DNA from: Dokdonella sp.
GTDB lineage: Bacteria; Pseudomonadota; Gammaproteobacteria; Xanthomonadales; Rhodanobacteraceae
Assembly (NCBI GenBank): GCA_019634795.1
Contig: JAHCAR010000008.1
Location: 1-64,000, forward strand
DNA length: 64,000 nucleotides
Direction: 5' to 3'
Shown in pieces: positions 14,847 to 21,583 of this stretch. The first letter of the stretch is position 1. Every line of letters begins with the position of its first letter. Under the pieces are notes generated by a model. It was not told the origin of the DNA. It was given only the letters and a program-made list of their open reading frames with translations, and did no database searches. Position numbers and translations under genes: made by a program.

Positions 14847-15326
14847 TCAGTCCGATCGGGCAGCGCGTGCAAACTGCCGGGCGAGGCGCTTGATCTCGCC
14901 CCACAGAGCCTGCTTGGCGGCCGCGTCGCCCGCGAGCGTCGTCGCCGCTGCAGCGACCACCCAGGCGATTTCATTCTGGCGCTGGGCCGGCAGGGCCGCG
15001 CCAAGCTCGCGGGCCAGGCGCTCGCCGAGCACGATCAGGCCGCGCGCGCCGGCGATCGCCCCGACATCGGCATGGCTGGTCTGCACGGCCAGCCCGGTCA
15101 GCCGGCAGGCACGCTGGAGATCCGCCAGAAAACGTGGAGGCGCATCCTCGTGGCCGAGGATCAGGATGTCGGAGGCGGCGACCGGATCATGTCCCGTCGC
15201 GGTCTCTGGCAATGTCGGGGCAGGCGCAGTTGGATCACTGGCCGCTTGCCCGCCCGCAATCGCACGCGGCAGATAGACCTCGACGCCGATCTCGGCAAGC
15301 AGGCGCAGACCGTACTCATCGAGCAT
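14847..15326 (-). CDS. probable DNA polymerase III psi subunit (HolD-like)
   Basis: 159 aa, weakly conserved. The psi subunit links the clamp loader to chi and SSB. The beginning (DEYGLRLLAEIGVEVYLPRA) resembles the N-terminus of psi, the middle has SDILILGHEDAPP, and the end (AKQALWGEIKRLARQF) resembles the ALWQQI helix of the E. coli protein. The gene directly precedes rimI, as in E. coli, which is the strongest argument. A low-complexity Ala/Pro/Thr insert lies at about 28-50. Its start overlaps the end of the preceding lipoprotein gene by 11 bases. The assignment is an inference from short matches and synteny. Confidence 0.68.
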   Translation of the reverse strand: MLDEYGLRLLAEIGVEVYLPRAIAGGQAASDPTAPAPTLPETATGHDPVAASDILILGHEDAPPRFLADLQRACRLTGLAVQTSHADVGAIAGARGLIVLGERLARELGAALPAQRQNEIAWVVAAAATTLAGDAAAKQALWGEIKRLARQFARAARSD

Positions 15327-15945
15327 GCTCGAGTTCCTGGCTCTTGATCAGGTCGGCGTGGAACTCGACGAAGATCTGGTCGACCGCCGTGAACATCGCC
15401 TCAGTGGCCGAGATCAGGCGCTTGTCCGCAGTCGGCACGTCGGCGTGGTAGATCTCGTTGGTCAGCGGCGTGCCGTCGGGCCGGTCGGCACGCAGCCTCA
15501 GGACGACACTGGCGATATGTCCGCCCTCGGGTGTCGGTACGCGCTCGAAGCGCAGGATTTCCCCGCTGATACGTACCGCACCCTGGCTCGCGGCCAGCGC
15601 CTGGATCACCAGCGGCGCCATGTTGGCCTCGCGCAGTTCGATCTGCAGGCGGCGCTGCAACAGCCGTGTCGGCGGATCGGTCCAGAGCTGGTAGTGGAAC
15701 TGGCGCAACTCCTCGGCAGCGGGATCGAGTGCGTAGATCAGGGCGCGATCGGCATACAGGCCGTTGGCCTCGAACAGGCCGACCACGATCGGATCGACGA
15801 ACACGGGCTTCTCGCTGCGCGGAAGCTGCTGCGGCTTGCTCATGCGGAAGTAGGTGTGATCGGGCACGCCCGGCACGTTGCCGCAGCCGGCCAGCAACAG
15901 CGCGGCGAGCAGCATCAGCAGGGCCATCGGTCCGGCAGGTCTCAT
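15316..15945 (-). CDS. ABC-type transport auxiliary lipoprotein (PqiC-like)
   Basis: 209 aa. The signal peptide ends in the lipobox LLAGC (Cys about residue 21), so the protein is lipid-anchored, probably at the outer membrane. The rest fits the ABC-transport auxiliary family (PqiC/DUF330): EKPVFVDPIVVGLFEANGLY, then FHYQLWTDPPTRLLQRRL. Such lipoproteins partner MCE-domain proteins of lipid transporters. It overlaps the MCE gene by four bases (ATGA), so the two are coupled. It would form the outer part of the MlaEFD-type system encoded upstream. Confidence 0.88.
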   Translation of the reverse strand: MRPAGPMALLMLLAALLLAGCGNVPGVPDHTYFRMSKPQQLPRSEKPVFVDPIVVGLFEANGLYADRALIYALDPAAEELRQFHYQLWTDPPTRLLQRRLQIELREANMAPLVIQALAASQGAVRISGEILRFERVPTPEGGHIASVVLRLRADRPDGTPLTNEIYHADVPTADKRLISATEAMFTAVDQIFVEFHADLIKSQELEHAR

Positions 15946-16868
15946 GGCGCGTCTTCCTCCAGCTTGTCCGGTTCCGGCGAGCGGATCAGTTGTCCGGGAT
16001 TGCGCCGGATCTCGCGACTGAATTCATCGAGGTTGCGCGTCGCCGACTCGAGATGATGGGTGATCACGTCCATGCGGCTGGACAGGCTGGCCATGACCGT
16101 GGCGAGGTCGGTGACCGCGCCGCGAATGTCGCCGCGATTTTCGCGCGCCATGTCGGCCAGTTCGCCGACCGTCTCGTCGAGGGTCTTGCGCGTTTCGCGC
16201 AGCTCCTTGCTGAGCCCCTCGACATTGCCGAGGATGCCGGCCACGGCTGCGCGGTTCTGCGGCTTGAGCAGGTCGTCGAGCGCATCGGAAGCGCCATTGA
16301 GCTTGCCGAGCAGGCTCTGCGCCTGGCCGAGAATTTCCGGCGCGCTGCTGTCGAGCGTGCCGGTGATCGAATCGACACGCTGCGAAAGCAGAGTGACCAG
16401 CGGCGTGATCTTGTCGCGGGTCAGGGTCGAAACCTGCCCGGCCAGCTCACCGACCGCGGCGAACACATCGGCCGTTTCCGCGCCCTTGATCTCGGCACCG
16501 GGCGCGAGCATGGTCCGGCTGCTGCCCTCCTTGATGCCGACCGACATGTCGGCGAGCAGTCCGCTCGACTGCAGGCTGGCGACGCTGTCGTCGGGGATGG
16601 TCCAGTCGCGGCGCACCGAAAGCGTGACCTGGTAGCGCGTGCCGCTGGCACCGCGCTGAGGCTCCACCTCGCTGACTTCGCCGATGCGGTAGCCCTCGTA
16701 GAACACCGGCGCGCCGTAGCGCAGTCCGGTGACATTGCGATAGTGCACGATGTAGTCGGTCGAGACACCGCTGCGACCGGTGATCAGGGCCAGGCCGACC
16801 AGCAGCAGGACCAGCGCCACGGCGACGACGGCTCCAACCAGGACATAGTTGACAGTGTCGCGTTTCAC
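15942..16868 (-). CDS. mlaD: MlaD/PqiB-like MCE-domain substrate-binding protein
   Basis: 308 aa. One N-terminal transmembrane anchor (YVLVGAVVAVALVLLLVGLA) is followed by one MCE domain (about 35-120: YRNVTGLRYGAPVFYEGYRIGEV, then LLADMSVGIKEG). A long helical C-terminal part (about 150-295) has heptad-like Leu/Val spacing. Canonical MlaD is about 180 aa, so the helical extension resembles PqiB-type proteins. MCE rings bind phospholipid between the inner membrane transporter and the periplasm. The start codon is GTG. The upstream ATPase gene is separated by a 289-bp gap that holds a foldback element, the only large gap within this transporter operon. Confidence 0.92.
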   Translation of the reverse strand: MKRDTVNYVLVGAVVAVALVLLLVGLALITGRSGVSTDYIVHYRNVTGLRYGAPVFYEGYRIGEVSEVEPQRGASGTRYQVTLSVRRDWTIPDDSVASLQSSGLLADMSVGIKEGSSRTMLAPGAEIKGAETADVFAAVGELAGQVSTLTRDKITPLVTLLSQRVDSITGTLDSSAPEILGQAQSLLGKLNGASDALDDLLKPQNRAAVAGILGNVEGLSKELRETRKTLDETVGELADMARENRGDIRGAVTDLATVMASLSSRMDVITHHLESATRNLDEFSREIRRNPGQLIRSPEPDKLEEDAP

Positions 16869-16901
16869 GGTGCGCTTCCCCTCGACAGTCGGAACATTCT
16901 A

Positions 16902-17120
16902 GGGAGGGTCTGACCAAGTAGCAAAGCCGTCATGGCGTTCAGAAGGTTCTCCACGTGTGCTGCGTGGCGAAGTGAAGGCTGGTTGCCTTGACGAGGCGCG
17001 CGGTGCATGTGGGGAGCCTTCTGGACGCCACCTATTCAACAACCCATCAATCAGTCAGGCGATACCTGCCTGCGCGCAGGCAGGTATCGTGACGGCTTTG
17101 CTACCTGGTCAGACCCTCCC
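16902..17120. mobile_element. 219-bp nested foldback (MITE-like) element
   Basis: The ends are inverted repeats of 31 bases (16902-16932 and 17090-17120) with one mismatch, starting GGGAGGGTCTGACCA. Immediately inside are a second pair of 22 bases (16933-16954 and 17009-17030) with three mismatches. Next to the right arm is a perfect 28-base palindrome (17061-17088, GATACCTGCC...). No open frame with a transposase was found and no convincing target duplication is visible. It lies between the MlaF-like and MlaD-like genes of one operon. Confidence 0.8.
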
Positions 17121-17156
17121 TGGCGTCTGTTGGAAATTCGATGCGTTCGTGGCGTT

Positions 17157-17957
17157 TCATTCGGTCTCTCCGACCAGGCGCTGCAGGTATTCGTCGGCGT
17201 CGACATGGACCTCGCGCGGGCGCCGGTTGAGCAGGTCCTGGATGCGCTCGTTGTCGGCCGCGCGTACTTCAGCCGTGGTCCCTGTCATCAGCACGTTGCC
17301 CTGGTCGAGCACGGTGATCGTGTCGGCGATCTTGAACGCGCTGTCGAGCTCGTGGGTGACGACGACGATGGTCATGCGCAACGCGTCGCGCAGGCGCAGG
17401 ATCAGTTCATCGAGCTCGGCCGAGACGACCGGATCGAGGCCGGCCGAGGGTTCGTCGAAGAACAGCAGGCGCGGGTCCATGACCACCGCACGCGCCAGCG
17501 CGGCGCGCTTGATCATGCCACCCGAAAGCTGGCTCGGCATCAGGTCCTGGAAGCCGCCGAGATTGACCACCTCGAGCTTGATCCGGCTCATGATGCGGAT
17601 GGTCTGCTCGTCGAGATTGGTGTGCTCGCGCAGCGGCAGGGCGACGTTGTCGCCGACCGTCATCGAGGTCAGCAGCGCGCCGCCCTGGAACGAGACGCCG
17701 ATGCGCTTGCGCACCTCGAGTTTCTCGCGATCGCTCGCGGTCGCCAGATCGGTGCCGAACAGCCGCACCGAACCCGAAACCGGCCGGTTGAGGCCCAGCA
17801 TGTGCCGCAGCAAGGTGCTCTTGCCCGAACCCGAGCCGCCCATGATCACGCGGATCTCGCCCGGATGGACGGTGAAGTCGACGCCATTGAGGATGCGCCG
17901 CTTGCCGTACCAGGCTTCGAGCTTTTCGACTTCGATCAGTGGCGCCGGCGTGTTCAT
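17157..17957 (-). CDS. mlaF: MlaF-like lipid ABC transporter ATPase
   Basis: 266 aa. A complete ABC ATPase: Walker A GGSGSGKST (about residues 40-48), Q-loop SFQGGAL, signature LSGGM, Walker B LLFFDEPSAGLDP and the switch histidine in VVTHEL. The C-terminal extension, which ends LQRLVGETE, is usual for Mla/Mkl ATPases. The ATG at 17957 overlaps the MlaE-like stop (ATGA). The same frame stays open upstream, but that part is antisense-like composition inside mlaE and is not coding. It powers phospholipid movement between the membranes with the MlaE-like permease. Confidence 0.95.
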   Translation of the reverse strand: MNTPAPLIEVEKLEAWYGKRRILNGVDFTVHPGEIRVIMGGSGSGKSTLLRHMLGLNRPVSGSVRLFGTDLATASDREKLEVRKRIGVSFQGGALLTSMTVGDNVALPLREHTNLDEQTIRIMSRIKLEVVNLGGFQDLMPSQLSGGMIKRAALARAVVMDPRLLFFDEPSAGLDPVVSAELDELILRLRDALRMTIVVVTHELDSAFKIADTITVLDQGNVLMTGTTAEVRAADNERIQDLLNRRPREVHVDADEYLQRLVGETE

Positions 17958-18751
17958 CTGTTCAGGAAGTAGGAAAAGATCATGTCGGCGACGATGATCC
18001 AGCAGATAGAGAGGACCACCGCGCGTGTCGTCGCGCGGCCGACGCCCTCGGCGCCACCGACCACGGAAAAGCCCGTGCTGACCCCGATCAGGGTGATCAG
18101 CAGGGCGAACACCGCGCTCTTGGCGATGCCCTGGCCGATATCGCCCGGGTCCAGCAGCGACATCGTCTGCAGCATGTAGGCGCTCGGCGTGATGTCGAGC
18201 GCCGGCGCGCTGTACAGGGCCGCGCCGTAGATCGCCACGGCATCGGCGAACACGGTCAGCAGCGGCAGCATGATCAGCATTGCGATCAGGGCCGGCGCGA
18301 CCAGGTAGCGGACCGGATCGATGCCGATCACGGCCAGCGCATCGACCTCCTGGGAAACCGTCATCGAACCGATCCGAGCGGCCAGCGCCGAGCCGGATCG
18401 TCCGGCGACGAGGATCGCCGTGATCAGGGCGCCGAATTCGCGCGTTACCGACTTGGCCACGGCGATGACGACCTGCGACTGCGCGCCGAACTCGCCGAGC
18501 GCGGAAACGAACTGGATGCCGAGCATGATGCCGACCGTGAAGGCGAGCAGGCAGACGATCGGCAGGGCGTCGACGCCGATCTGACGCATCTGCTCGAGCA
18601 CCGCGCGCAGGCGCAGCGGCTGGCCGATGCGCCAGCCGAATGCCGACAGGTACAGCGATTCGTACAGCAGCATGGCCGCATAGCCCATGCCGCCGAGGGC
18701 CTCCGCGGTGGCCCTTCCGAGCTTGCCGAGCGGTCGGGTCAGGGCTTCCAA
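17954..18751 (-). CDS. mlaE: MlaE-like lipid ABC transporter permease
   Basis: 265 aa, inner membrane, five or six hydrophobic segments. The family signatures FTVGIMLGIQFVSAL, VTREFGALITAILVAGRSGSALAARIGSM and EVDALAVIGIDPVRYLVAP are intact. The start codon appears to be TTG at 18751, lying within the last codons of the STAS gene (13-base overlap). It therefore depends on translation of the STAS gene. The C-terminus is coupled to the ATPase gene by ATGA. Confidence 0.94.
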   Translation of the reverse strand: MEALTRPLGKLGRATAEALGGMGYAAMLLYESLYLSAFGWRIGQPLRLRAVLEQMRQIGVDALPIVCLLAFTVGIMLGIQFVSALGEFGAQSQVVIAVAKSVTREFGALITAILVAGRSGSALAARIGSMTVSQEVDALAVIGIDPVRYLVAPALIAMLIMLPLLTVFADAVAIYGAALYSAPALDITPSAYMLQTMSLLDPGDIGQGIAKSAVFALLITLIGVSTGFSVVGGAEGVGRATTRAVVLSICWIIVADMIFSYFLNR

Positions 18752-19092
18752 GCCGCTGTACCGCTGAGGTCGGGAATCGCTTCGATGTCTGCGACGATCG
18801 GAAAGACGCGGTCGAGCCTGGCCAGTTCGAGCACGGCACGCACCGAATCGCTGACCGCGACCAGGGCGAAACCGCTGCCCTTCGAGCGCGCGTTCTGGAA
18901 GCCCTCGACGAGAGCGGCGATGCCGGACGAATCGATGTAGCTGACCTCGCTGAGGACGACGCCGACGCGCTGGCTCGTGGACAGTGCCTCGAGCACGGCC
19001 TGGCGGACCTGTTGCGACCAGGACAGGTCGACTTCACCGCGCAGCCGGATCAGCGTGCAGCCGTCGGCGGTTTCCTGTTCGATACCGTTCAT
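18739..19092 (-). CDS. STAS-domain protein (anti-sigma-factor-antagonist / MlaB type)
   Basis: 117 aa, a single STAS domain starting with MNGIEQETADGCTLIRLRGEVDLSW. The loop SEVSYIDSSGIAALVEGF holds the DSSG motif in which SpoIIAA/RsbV proteins are phosphorylated (Ser55 or Ser56). It sits between a PP2C phosphatase/HATPase kinase gene upstream (4-base overlap) and the MlaE-like gene downstream (13-base overlap). Family knowledge offers two roles: an RsbV-type switch protein, or an MlaB-type subunit bound to the MlaF ATPase. The location allows both at once. An upstream in-frame extension to 19236 lies inside the phosphatase gene and is not needed. Confidence 0.9.
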   Translation of the reverse strand: MNGIEQETADGCTLIRLRGEVDLSWSQQVRQAVLEALSTSQRVGVVLSEVSYIDSSGIAALVEGFQNARSKGSGFALVAVSDSVRAVLELARLDRVFPIVADIEAIPDLSGTAAWKP

Positions 19093-20795
19093 TCGTGATC
19101 TTCCCCGTTCCTTCGCGTGAGGCTGATGCGCTTGTGCATGACCAGCCGGTTGCCCTTGCCGTCGGGCCGTGCCTGCAATTTCCAATCGTCCATTACCGAA
19201 TCGATCAGCGCCACCCCGAGCCCTCCACTGCGACATTCGCCGAGCGGCTTCGGCCGCACCCGCGCCGGATCGACCGGCGGCGCCGTGTCGAACAGGCGGA
19301 ATTCGAGGATGCCGCCATCGCTGGTCAGGTGCAGATCGATGTCGCCCGAATCTTTCGGCCCGTAGGCATGGCGGATGATGTTGCAGCAGGCCTCGTCGAT
19401 GGCGAGCACGAGTTTATCGCGAATGCCGGTTTCGACGCCCGCGTCGTCGAGCGTGGTGCGCAACAGCGAACGGATCTCGCGCATCTGCTCGGGCCTGGCC
19501 GGAAAGCGGCGCTTGAGCAGGACCTCGGGACCGTGCGGATGCATGCGCTCGATCAGCAGCAGGGTAGTGTCGTCGACCAGGCGCAGGTGCTTGAGTTCCG
19601 AGAACATGCCGCGCAGGCGCGGTTCGGCGGATGCGCCGGCATGTCGCTCGATCAGCGCGCGCACACCCTCCGAGCCGATGGTCTGGCGTTGCGCGTCGCG
19701 CACATCGGTGACGCCGTCGGAGAAGCAGTACAGCGAGGCCTCGTCGAGATCGATCTCGTGGCCGTCGAAGGTCATGCCCGGAAGGATGCCGAGTGGCGCG
19801 CCGCCCGACAGGAACTCGGTGAACTCGCCGCGCCGATACAGCAGGGCCGGCGGAAATCCGGCCGCGGCGATATGCACATGCCTGGCCAGGCGATCGCAAT
19901 GGCCGACCAGGGCGCAGACGAAGCGCCCATCGAGGCTGGTCTGGCAGAGCTCCTCGTTGACGCGCTCGAGCCACGATTCGGGCGGCGTGCCCTCCTTGCC
20001 GATCCAGCGCAGCAGCGAGGCGACGCGAACCATCAGCAGGGCCGCATCGAGGCCCTTGCCCGAGACATCGCCGATGAAGAAGCCGATGCGCCCGTCGGGC
20101 AGATCGAAGTAGTCGTAGAAATCGCCGGAAATCTCGTGTGCCGGCAGGTTCACCCCGAGCAGCGGGAAACCGTTGCGACGGCGCTTCGGCAGCAGCGATT
20201 TCTGCATGCGCCGGGCGAGGTCGAATTCGCGCTTCATGCGCGCCTGCTGGACCAGTTCATTGGCCATGCGCGCATTGTTGATGGCCAGCGAGGTCGGCGC
20301 CGCGATCAGGCGCAGGATCTCGGCATCGTCGGCGGTGAACGCACCACCGCTGCGCTTGTTGACCACTTCGAGCGCGCCGATCGGTCCCTTGGCCGTGGCC
20401 AGCGGCGCGCACAGCAGGCTGCGCGTGACGAAGCCGGTATCGCTGTCGGTGGAATGGTCGACGCGTGAATCGTTCAGCGCGTCGGCCACGACCTGGCTGG
20501 CATTTTCGGCCACCGCGCGGCCGACCACGCCCTGTCCGGTCGGGATGCGCAGGCCGGCAATGTCGATCGGACCGACGCAGACCCGGCATTCGAGCGTGCT
20601 GCCGCTCTCGTCGAGCAGGAACAGCGAGGCCGCTTCGGCGCCCATGAAGTCGGCAATCCGGTTGACCGCTTCGCTGAGGGTCTGGCGCAGGTCCAGCGAG
20701 ACCGCCAGGGTTTCCGACAGATCGGCGAGGAAGGCCAGCGCACGCGCCTGATCGGCCCGGGCCGAGTCATGCTGCATGGCCGGCACGCTGCTCAT
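19089..20795 (-). CDS. GAF-PP2C(SpoIIE)-HATPase partner-switching regulator (RsbU/RsbW fusion)
   Basis: 568 aa, cytosolic. A GAF sensor occupies about residues 20-175, followed by a short coiled coil. A SpoIIE-type PP2C phosphatase at about 205-415 shows GDFYDYF, GDVSGKGLDA, FSDGVTD and DDTTLL metal-binding segments. A C-terminal SpoIIAB/RsbW-like HATPase domain at about 430-560 has the N-box DEACCNIIRHAYG and the GGLGVALI G-box. One protein thus carries both opposing activities toward a STAS partner: phosphatase and serine kinase. The start at 20795 overlaps the pssA stop (ATGA), and its end overlaps the STAS gene. No sigma factor is encoded nearby. Confidence 0.92.
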   Translation of the reverse strand: MSSVPAMQHDSARADQARALAFLADLSETLAVSLDLRQTLSEAVNRIADFMGAEAASLFLLDESGSTLECRVCVGPIDIAGLRIPTGQGVVGRAVAENASQVVADALNDSRVDHSTDSDTGFVTRSLLCAPLATAKGPIGALEVVNKRSGGAFTADDAEILRLIAAPTSLAINNARMANELVQQARMKREFDLARRMQKSLLPKRRRNGFPLLGVNLPAHEISGDFYDYFDLPDGRIGFFIGDVSGKGLDAALLMVRVASLLRWIGKEGTPPESWLERVNEELCQTSLDGRFVCALVGHCDRLARHVHIAAAGFPPALLYRRGEFTEFLSGGAPLGILPGMTFDGHEIDLDEASLYCFSDGVTDVRDAQRQTIGSEGVRALIERHAGASAEPRLRGMFSELKHLRLVDDTTLLLIERMHPHGPEVLLKRRFPARPEQMREIRSLLRTTLDDAGVETGIRDKLVLAIDEACCNIIRHAYGPKDSGDIDLHLTSDGGILEFRLFDTAPPVDPARVRPKPLGECRSGGLGVALIDSVMDDWKLQARPDGKGNRLVMHKRISLTRRNGEDHE

Positions 20796-21583
20796 TCCTC
20801 GCTGCGCTCGCTGCTGCGCAGGGCGCGCTGTTCGCGCCAGCGGCGCAGGCCCCAAAGGGTCATGACCGGTCCCGACAGCACGTAGAGCGCGGCGATGCCG
20901 AACAGGACCCGGGCCGGATCGACGGCCAGGGCGACGAAGATCAGCAGCGCGGCCGGAATCCAGATGAACGGCACGCGATCCGAGGTCGGCCAGGACTTGA
21001 AGCTGAAATAGCGCACGTTGCTGACCATCAAGAGGCCGGCGACCACGGCGATGACCGGGGTGATGAACTGCACCTCGAGCCCGCTCATGTCGAACTTCTC
21101 GATGGTCCACACGAAGGACATGCACAGGCCCGCTGCGGCCGGGCTGGCCAGCCCCTGGAAATAGCGCTTGTCGGCCACTCCGACTTGGGTGTTGAAGCGG
21201 GCCAGGCGCATCGCCGCGCAGGCGGCATAGATGAAGGCCGCGGCCCAGCCGATCTTGCCCCACAGCGAGCCGTATTCGGTCAGCGATGACAGCGACCAGG
21301 TGTACATGACCAGGGCCGGGGCGAGGCCGAAGCTGACCAGATCGGAAAGCGAATCGTACTGCACGCCGAAATCGCTCTGGGTGCCGGTCAGGCGGGCCAC
21401 GCGCCCGTCCAGGCCATCCAGCACGCCAGCCACGAAAACGGCCAGCGCGGCCTCGGAATAGCGCCCGCCGATTGCCGCGACGATGGCATAGAACCCGGCG
21501 AACATGGCCCCCGTCGTGAACAGGTTGGGCAACAGATAAATGCCGCGGGGCCGCTTGCGCGGACTGGAGGGTAGTTCTTCCAT
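20792..21583 (-). CDS. pssA: CDP-diacylglycerol--serine O-phosphatidyltransferase
   Basis: 263 aa, membrane enzyme that makes phosphatidylserine, the precursor of phosphatidylethanolamine. The CDP-alcohol phosphotransferase motif is present as DGLDGRVARLTGTQSDFGVQYDSLSD (divided here over about residues 55-80), with all Asp positions intact. About seven hydrophobic segments follow. The N-terminus begins with a Pro/Arg-rich stretch and YLLPNLFTTGAMFAGF. It is the first gene of the series running to rimI, coupled to the phosphatase/kinase gene by ATGA. Confidence 0.94.
   Translation of the reverse strand: MEELPSSPRKRPRGIYLLPNLFTTGAMFAGFYAIVAAIGGRYSEAALAVFVAGVLDGLDGRVARLTGTQSDFGVQYDSLSDLVSFGLAPALVMYTWSLSSLTEYGSLWGKIGWAAAFIYAACAAMRLARFNTQVGVADKRYFQGLASPAAAGLCMSFVWTIEKFDMSGLEVQFITPVIAVVAGLLMVSNVRYFSFKSWPTSDRVPFIWIPAALLIFVALAVDPARVLFGIAALYVLSGPVMTLWGLRRWREQRALRSSERSEE

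Follow-up and report, generated by a model that had tools for sequence, protein, structure and literature searches.

Known systems and the locus under study

The Mla system of Escherichia coli, MlaFEDB(C), combines the permease MlaE, the ATPase MlaF with an LSGGM signature and a C-terminal extension, an MCE protein and the cytoplasmic STAS protein MlaB (PMC7367683, PMC5016091). According to these papers, MlaB docks on MlaF via a helical face that has Thr52 near its centre; the C-terminal extension of MlaF reaches the MlaF-MlaB groove, and MlaB is required for MlaF to remain with MlaED (PMC7367683). The idea that MlaB is phosphorylated was put forward in 2016 and again in 2020, both times with no kinase named, and one of the two papers calls the regulation of active MlaB an open question (PMC5016091, PMC7367683). 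Here we analyse a locus in the first 64,000 nucleotides (nt) of contig JAHCAR010000008.1 of Dokdonella sp. (assembly GCA_019634795.1), hereafter the window, in which homologues of MlaE, MlaF and MlaD lie together in one gene series (PF02405, PF00005 and PF02470 above cut-off) with an RsbV-type STAS protein and a protein carrying both a phosphatase and a kinase domain. We consider it probable that the MlaF of this lipid transporter is gated by a partner-switching module, in which the STAS protein plays the role of MlaB, is phosphorylated by the RsbW-like domain and is dephosphorylated by the sensor-linked PP2C domain. The parts, their catalytic residues, their conservation, co-inheritance and gene order are read from the sequences themselves.

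The window transporter resembles E. coli Mla in its MlaE, MlaF, MCE and STAS components but differs in its longer MlaD and in a PqiC-like lipoprotein encoded in the operon instead of MlaC and MlaA, neither of which was found in the window operon, the part of the genome searched for them. The Mla-Pqi chimeric (Mpc) system of Brucella likewise has MlaE- and MlaF-like proteins, an elongated MlaD-like MCE protein and a PqiC-like lipoprotein in an operon without MlaA or MlaC; its STAS domain, however, is fused to the permease in a four-gene operon described without kinase or phosphatase, whereas the window STAS is a separate gene (PMC12436622). Two MlaE genes were found in the genome, and the second, on contig C2 (L089:7879-10871), has a STAS domain (DTAG) at its N-terminus, its own MlaF and lipoprotein and no kinase in the stretch, thus sharing the fused STAS-permease layout of Mpc (PMC12436622).

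The switch part resembles SpoIIE/SpoIIAB/SpoIIAA and RsbU/RsbW/RsbV, which comprise a PP2C phosphatase, a HATPase kinase and a STAS protein with a DSSG/DSTG-type site. Unlike these switches, the window module has no sigma factor near it, its co-inherited partner is an ATP-binding cassette (ABC) ATPase, and its phosphatase and kinase form one polypeptide. Another gammaproteobacterial kinase-STAS pair, SypE-SypA of Vibrio fischeri, is active with the STAS protein unphosphorylated (PMC4517449; see also PMC10120452); it differs in controlling biofilm formation, by a mechanism given as unknown in PMC4517449, the main text of which has no occurrence of "Mla". In the open-access literature, with subscription papers and bioRxiv outside the scope of the search, we found no paper that connects a kinase or phosphatase of partner switching with an Mla or MCE transporter. 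A STAS review (PMC8256260) and a study of phosphatase specificity (PMC11418112) contained none of the terms tried for Mla and transporters, and neither T52 nor phosphorylation occurred in PMC10245069 and PMC7790496. The sequence-only reading that preceded this work was aware of no published system of this kind. That holds for the wiring within the literature covered, but the idea of MlaB phosphorylation was already in print, and the transporter resembles Mpc (PMC5016091, PMC7367683, PMC12436622). The parts are known ones; on the best available account, the novelty lies in the output of the switch and in a kinase that is the first candidate for acting on an MlaB-type protein.

The sensor-phosphatase-kinase protein

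All transporter and switch genes lie on the minus strand, running from 21583 to 15316 in window coordinates. The sensor-phosphatase-kinase protein (568 amino acids (aa); 19089..20795) contains a GAF domain (PF01590/PF13185), a PP2C domain of the SpoIIE/RsbU type (PF07228, 138.7 bits) and a HATPase_c_2 domain of the RsbW type (PF13581, 91 bits), all above cut-off. The HATPase domain aligns with Bacillus subtilis RsbW in the PDB (E 1.1e-6), with E468 and N472 included in the alignment. Among 13 aligned proteins, D225, D243, D360, D408 and D409 of the PP2C domain, which we take to be its metal-binding Asp residues, are invariant, as are Glu468/Asn472, Asp503, Gly524 and Gly527 of the kinase domain. 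Glu468/Asn472 form what is presumably the N-box, and the presumed G1 region reads DTAPPVD, versus the textbook DxGxG. Taken together, the protein is predicted to pair a PP2C phosphatase with conserved metal-binding Asp residues and a GHKL-type serine kinase with the N-box Glu/Asn, the combination expected of a partner-switching module. An earlier claim of a PP2C phosphatase plus an RsbW-like kinase with intact N- and G-boxes thus stands for both domains and for the N-box, while it was slightly generous for the G-boxes. The closest named relatives of the protein come from Lysobacterales bacterium 63-13 (84%) and a Dokdonella metagenome-assembled genome (78%). Elsewhere in the genome, contig C18 (9916-10251) encodes a 154-aa stand-alone RsbW-like HATPase_c_2 protein, with neither PP2C nor STAS matched in the surrounding 10.5 kb.

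The STAS protein and its phospho-site

The STAS protein (117 aa; 18739..19092; PF01740) is of the RsbV/SpoIIAA type and is our proposed MlaB equivalent. It matches the TIGR00377 model "anti-sigma factor antagonist" at 72 bits (cut-off 53) and reaches 29 of the 90 bits needed for the mlaB_1 model, so that in contrast to E. coli MlaB it is not assigned to MlaB by family model; it also comes with a kinase and a phosphatase. Its AlphaFold model (predicted local distance difference test, pLDDT, 91.6) gives TM1442, RsbV and SpoIIAA as top fold matches. As previously noted, the DSSG phosphorylation site is retained, reading D54-S55-S56-G57, and Thr52 of E. coli MlaB is the position corresponding to it.

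This site follows the presence of the module closely. DSSG is found in 114 of 115 STAS rows (matches above 80 bits; the rows are not de-duplicated, and, judged by length, at least three contigs are present twice, L104/L206, L116/L218 and L121/L222). The sole exception, DSSA in L092, belongs to G143, an f9 draft in which no kinase was matched, and was left out of alignment A3, whose invariant DSSG is to be read with L092 excluded. By comparison, in 15 systems from the order whose loci lack a kinase, the MlaE frame contains a STAS domain or its remnant, and the sites read DTAG (7), DTSG (3), DSAG (3) or are degenerate (2; L240, L247), with DSSG in none. These controls are kinase-less at the locus only (no match in about 8-16 kb): among their genomes, G110 and the window genome itself (labelled G000 in the draws) hold the module elsewhere, and G039, G046, G056, G085 and G097 have a weaker PP2C/HATPase match. 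Among more distant STAS relatives, from the phylum draw described below, DSSG occurs in 14 of 20.

The remaining STAS matches of the window genome (51 contigs, 85% complete) fall in frames of 579 and 587 aa. Since all others are fused to MlaE or lie in these long frames, the window STAS is the only free-standing one found in the genome, and no second mlaB that could serve the transporter was found there.

Conservation and co-inheritance within the order

To define orthologues among 151 genomes drawn from the order, we called a match strong at E <=2e-92 for the kinase/phosphatase, <=1.5e-18 for STAS and <=1.3e-99 for MlaF, limits that were chosen after the scores proved to fall in two groups. 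Strong orthologues were present in 49, 51 and 52 genomes, respectively; all three occurred in 48 and any of them in 53, leaving five mixed genomes (G073, G104, G123, G143, G148), among which G104 holds a distant version of the entire series (L090). Besides that of the window there are 48 kinase loci, of which 40 were fetched (left out: G026, G033, G034, G073, G076, G103, G128, G138). In all 40, pssA lies directly upstream of the kinase/phosphatase gene. STAS and MlaE genes follow the kinase in 23, with MlaF as well in 19 of those 23. The other 17 belong to family f9, where the stretch fetched around the pssA-kinase pair contains neither STAS nor Mla genes. In all six f9 genomes where the two sites share a contig and the distal region was fetched (G071, G088, G050, G036, G093, G098), a STAS-MlaE-MlaF-MlaD-lipoprotein series lies 52-57 kb from the pair. 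MlaF is apart from STAS-MlaE in four f12 genomes, and phosphatase and kinase are separate adjoining genes in families f4 and f5. Even in genomes where they are unlinked, the genes for kinase/phosphatase, STAS and MlaF are inherited together.

Conservation within the class

A draw of 369 genomes of the class (STAS E <=1e-15, MlaF E <=1e-72) gave a similar picture. STAS was found in 61 genomes and MlaF in 60, with both in 57 and neither in 305 (phi 0.93, in counts that ignore the relatedness of the genomes); the STAS family is spread over 46 of the 272 genera. STAS occurs without MlaF in G217, G363, G397 and G461. In the 59 STAS loci fetched (all except those of the window and G012), HATPase lies immediately upstream of STAS in 57, PP2C lies upstream in 50, and MlaE or MlaF lies near downstream in 51. 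Among the eight loci without a near Mla gene, L185 ends inside mlaF at the contig end; G268, G490, G332 and G192 have the MlaF clade elsewhere, as an MlaF-MlaE-MlaD series; and G461, G397 and G217 are without the clade elsewhere, the last two being weak STAS matches. STAS without adjacent Mla genes was considered as a disproof of the link and set aside, because four of the five strong class genomes with contig room carry MlaF elsewhere, G461 being the one that does not. An earlier suggestion to survey the gene order is hence answered: the order is kept well beyond the taxonomic order, and the genes are co-inherited even when apart. The link to pssA is a trait of the order, since pssA adjoins the module in just one of the 59 class loci (L179).

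The sensor varies more than the output. PP2C precedes the kinase in 50 class loci; the match to the GAF-PP2C profile starts at GAF in 21 of them and only at PP2C in the other 29; in one locus, L190, an HDOD domain (162 bits) is confirmed in place of GAF. Across the class loci the sensor domain thus appears to be swapped while the output is kept.

Several gene orders in other lineages place this STAS where MlaB would be expected. In L190 and L213 the series reads PP2C-HATPase-STAS-MlaF-MlaE-MlaD-MlaA-MlaC (names by Pfam for MlaA and MlaC of L190 and MlaD of L213, by similarity for the others), and, judged by eye, no following frame in either locus resembles a STAS gene. In L105, L109 and L218, kinase and STAS stand ahead of MlaE-MlaD-MlaA-MlaC, with MlaF convergent (by Pfam for L109). 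In L188, L217 and L219, PP2C-HATPase-STAS is followed by MlaF with no recognised MlaE beside it, making the ATPase the closest-kept neighbour in these three.

The window MlaF-type ABC ATPase (266 aa; 17157..17957; PF00005) has an LSGGM signature and a C-terminal extension ending ...EYLQRLVGETE. LSGGM and a Tyr-x3-Leu C-terminal extension are kept in 108 of 109 MlaF proteins, and Pseudomonas aeruginosa MlaF aligns with the window protein over residues 6-264. The MlaE-type permease (265 aa; 17954..18751; TTG start) matches PF02405 at 234 bits.

Distribution beyond the class

We scanned 80 loci of relatives and tallied 28 contigs by name (L099-L123 and L133-L135), with labels that include Paramagnetospirillum, Rhodospirillaceae and Deltaproteobacteria. 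A STAS match was present in 23 of the 28, with HATPase and PP2C upstream in 23 of 23 and MlaE or MlaF downstream in 22 of 23. Two further contigs show other arrangements. One labelled Akkermansia (L146:6170-10578) carries STAS-MlaE-MlaF-MlaD-GAF/PP2C/HATPase, a different order with gaps below 20 bases, and a Prevotella contig (L178:5966-10549) carries MlaE-MlaF-TPR/PP2C-HATPase-STAS on one strand, with MASSG as the STAS site.

In a phylum draw, STAS matches were found in 67 of 398 genomes, weaker and mostly from family f217. In 20 regions fetched from these 67 genomes, HATPase lies directly upstream of STAS in 14, six have a weak MlaE match upstream at no more than about 4 kb, and just three have a strong MlaF. 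Because these loci are mostly without a strong MlaF, the tight link to this MlaF clade is a trait of the orthologous group, not of all STAS relatives. Five f217 loci (L275, L277, L278, L286, L287) carry a divergent MlaE, a 224-230 aa frame at the MlaF position, MlaD, a lipoprotein-like frame, HATPase-STAS and a ubiD-like gene (named by eye); the 224-230 aa frame has no Pfam match, as tested for L277. These loci possibly represent an ATPase-degenerate MCE transporter adjoining a kinase-STAS pair.

Proposed mechanism and alternatives

We propose that the transporter consists of MlaE-MlaF-MlaD and the PqiC-like lipoprotein, and that its ATPase is gated by the module. Unphosphorylated STAS would dock on MlaF as MlaB does and so hold the ATPase in its assembled, active state. 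The RsbW-like domain would compete for the same helical face of STAS and phosphorylate Ser55, which would block docking and turn transport off, while the PP2C domain of the same polypeptide, under the control of GAF (HDOD in other lineages), would remove the phosphate and turn transport on. The coupling to pssA would tie the switch, in this order, to phospholipid synthesis. We infer the STAS-MlaF binding, the phosphorylation, the direction of the switch and the signal, and the direction is the least certain step. The suggestion of the sequence-only reading, that the phosphorylation state of STAS tunes a lipid transporter, is supported as the best explanation of the comparative data. On balance we also favour a wider proposal, that partner-switched lipid ABC transporters are widespread in Proteobacteria and at least one further phylum, with an RsbW-like enzyme as the missing kinase of the MlaB-type STAS, an ABC ATPase replacing the sigma factor, and interchangeable sensors (GAF, HDOD) timing lipid movement between membranes. 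A kinase and a phosphatase encoded beside STAS and inherited with its ATPase bear directly on the published proposals of MlaB phosphorylation. If the mechanism is true, a reconstituted system would allow MlaB regulation to be tested directly, partner switching would acquire an output outside transcription, acting on a transporter, and intermembrane lipid traffic would come under rapid post-translational control, linked in this order to phosphatidylserine synthesis.

Several observations weigh against gating of MlaF by the module, beyond the neglect of relatedness in the co-occurrence counts. MlaF occurs without this STAS in three class genomes (G161, G215, G383); G461, which is 99% complete, has the kinase and STAS without an MlaF of the clade; and in G148 (L091; an f9 draft, 98% complete), STAS with DSSG and MlaF are present but no kinase match reaches the threshold. 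All 16 relatives probed with PF13466 hold other STAS_2 proteins (2-8 matches each), so that "no other MlaB in the genome" does not extend to these relatives, and sole use of this STAS is therefore shown for the window genome as assembled only. In L180, L184, L193 and L122, an nth-like gene, a short gene, PP2C, HATPase and STAS come before convergently oriented genes of the FHA-domain and PP2C types (named by eye), and Mla genes are not adjacent. Mutual information between STAS and its partners gave nothing specific, with W25, A36 and R16 of STAS recurring with most partners. Mean-field direct coupling analysis lent the proposal slight support through a modest enrichment at the expected STAS-MlaF interface, with scores equally high for MlaD as a control; we treat this signal as weak because an arbitrary MlaE control block also seems enriched at the top 50.

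Alternatively, the module may act on another target (a sigma factor, an anti-sigma factor or another protein) and share the locus for joint expression or because of a common envelope-lipid role. Partner switching classically controls sigma factors; kinase-STAS pairs without Mla genes occur in the four loci just described and in L191 and L223, and 17 of the 20 fetched phylum-draw loci have no strong MlaF. In the 85%-complete genome, however, nothing exceeds the cut-off of the SigB/F/G model; there are three weaker sigma-type hits (best 117.7 versus 234 bits), and a target among other types of sigma or anti-sigma factor may exist. STAS is moreover co-inherited with MlaF, and where the contig leaves room but no Mla gene adjoins, four of the five strong class-draw cases have the MlaF clade elsewhere; STAS stands in MlaB's place, and related systems fuse STAS to MlaE. 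We therefore regard another target as unlikely. We judge it very unlikely that STAS is a constitutive, structural MlaB-like subunit, with the kinase and phosphatase acting on something else or being remnants. Going by the DNA, fused STAS-MlaE relatives do manage with no kinase linked to them, but the catalytic residues of PP2C and kinase are invariant among the 13 proteins, DSSG is found in 114/115 rows with the module versus 0/15 without, and the kinase immediately precedes STAS in 57/59 class loci.

The sign of the switch is a separate matter. With the same wiring, phosphorylated STAS, or the phosphorylation cycle itself, might activate MlaF. E. coli MlaB T52A still binds MlaF and assembles, yet ATPase activity is lost (PMC5016091), suggesting that the hydroxyl or its modification may be needed; plain on/off binding fails to explain this mutant, since it binds MlaF and is nonetheless inactive, and this counts against the direction that we prefer. 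In the other direction, T52E weakens the MlaF pull-down (PMC7367683), and phosphorylation of SpoIIAA, RsbR and RsbS is stated in that paper to disrupt partner binding. Activation by phosphorylation is accordingly quite unlikely in our view, and we retain docking of the unphosphorylated STAS as the active state.

Other features of the gene series

The series was earlier described as running from pssA to a PqiC-like lipoprotein with overlaps of mostly 4-13 bases, and our annotation agrees: each gene was found on the minus strand, its Pfam match exceeding the gathering score, and successive overlaps from pssA to MlaF are 4, 4, 13 and 4 bases, followed by the exception, a 288-base MlaF-MlaD gap, and a 4-base overlap of MlaD and lipoprotein genes. 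The span first given for the series, 15942..21583, encloses six of the genes; the lipoprotein gene (15316-15945) falls outside it. The first gene of the coupled series, pssA (20792..21583), encodes a CDP-diacylglycerol-serine O-phosphatidyltransferase of 263 aa (PF01066; TIGR00473, 110.7 bits, cut-off 107). The MlaD-type MCE protein (308 aa; 15942..16868; GTG start; PF02470, 48.5 bits) is longer than classical MlaD, and the PqiC-like lipoprotein (209 aa; 15316..15945) is of the ABC_trans_aux family (PF03886, 33.9 bits, cut-off 26).

The MlaF-MlaD gap holds a foldback element, predicted before and now placed at 16901-17121. It resembles a miniature inverted-repeat transposable element: its terminal inverted repeats are 32 nt long and 97% complementary, a 30-bp palindrome lies inside, and its repeat core has no second copy within the window. 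The element could affect mlaD expression. It is missing from the relative L039, whose mlaF-mlaD gap is shorter. Past the 3' end of the lipoprotein gene come a 159-aa frame that no Pfam family matches and a GNAT acetyltransferase gene.

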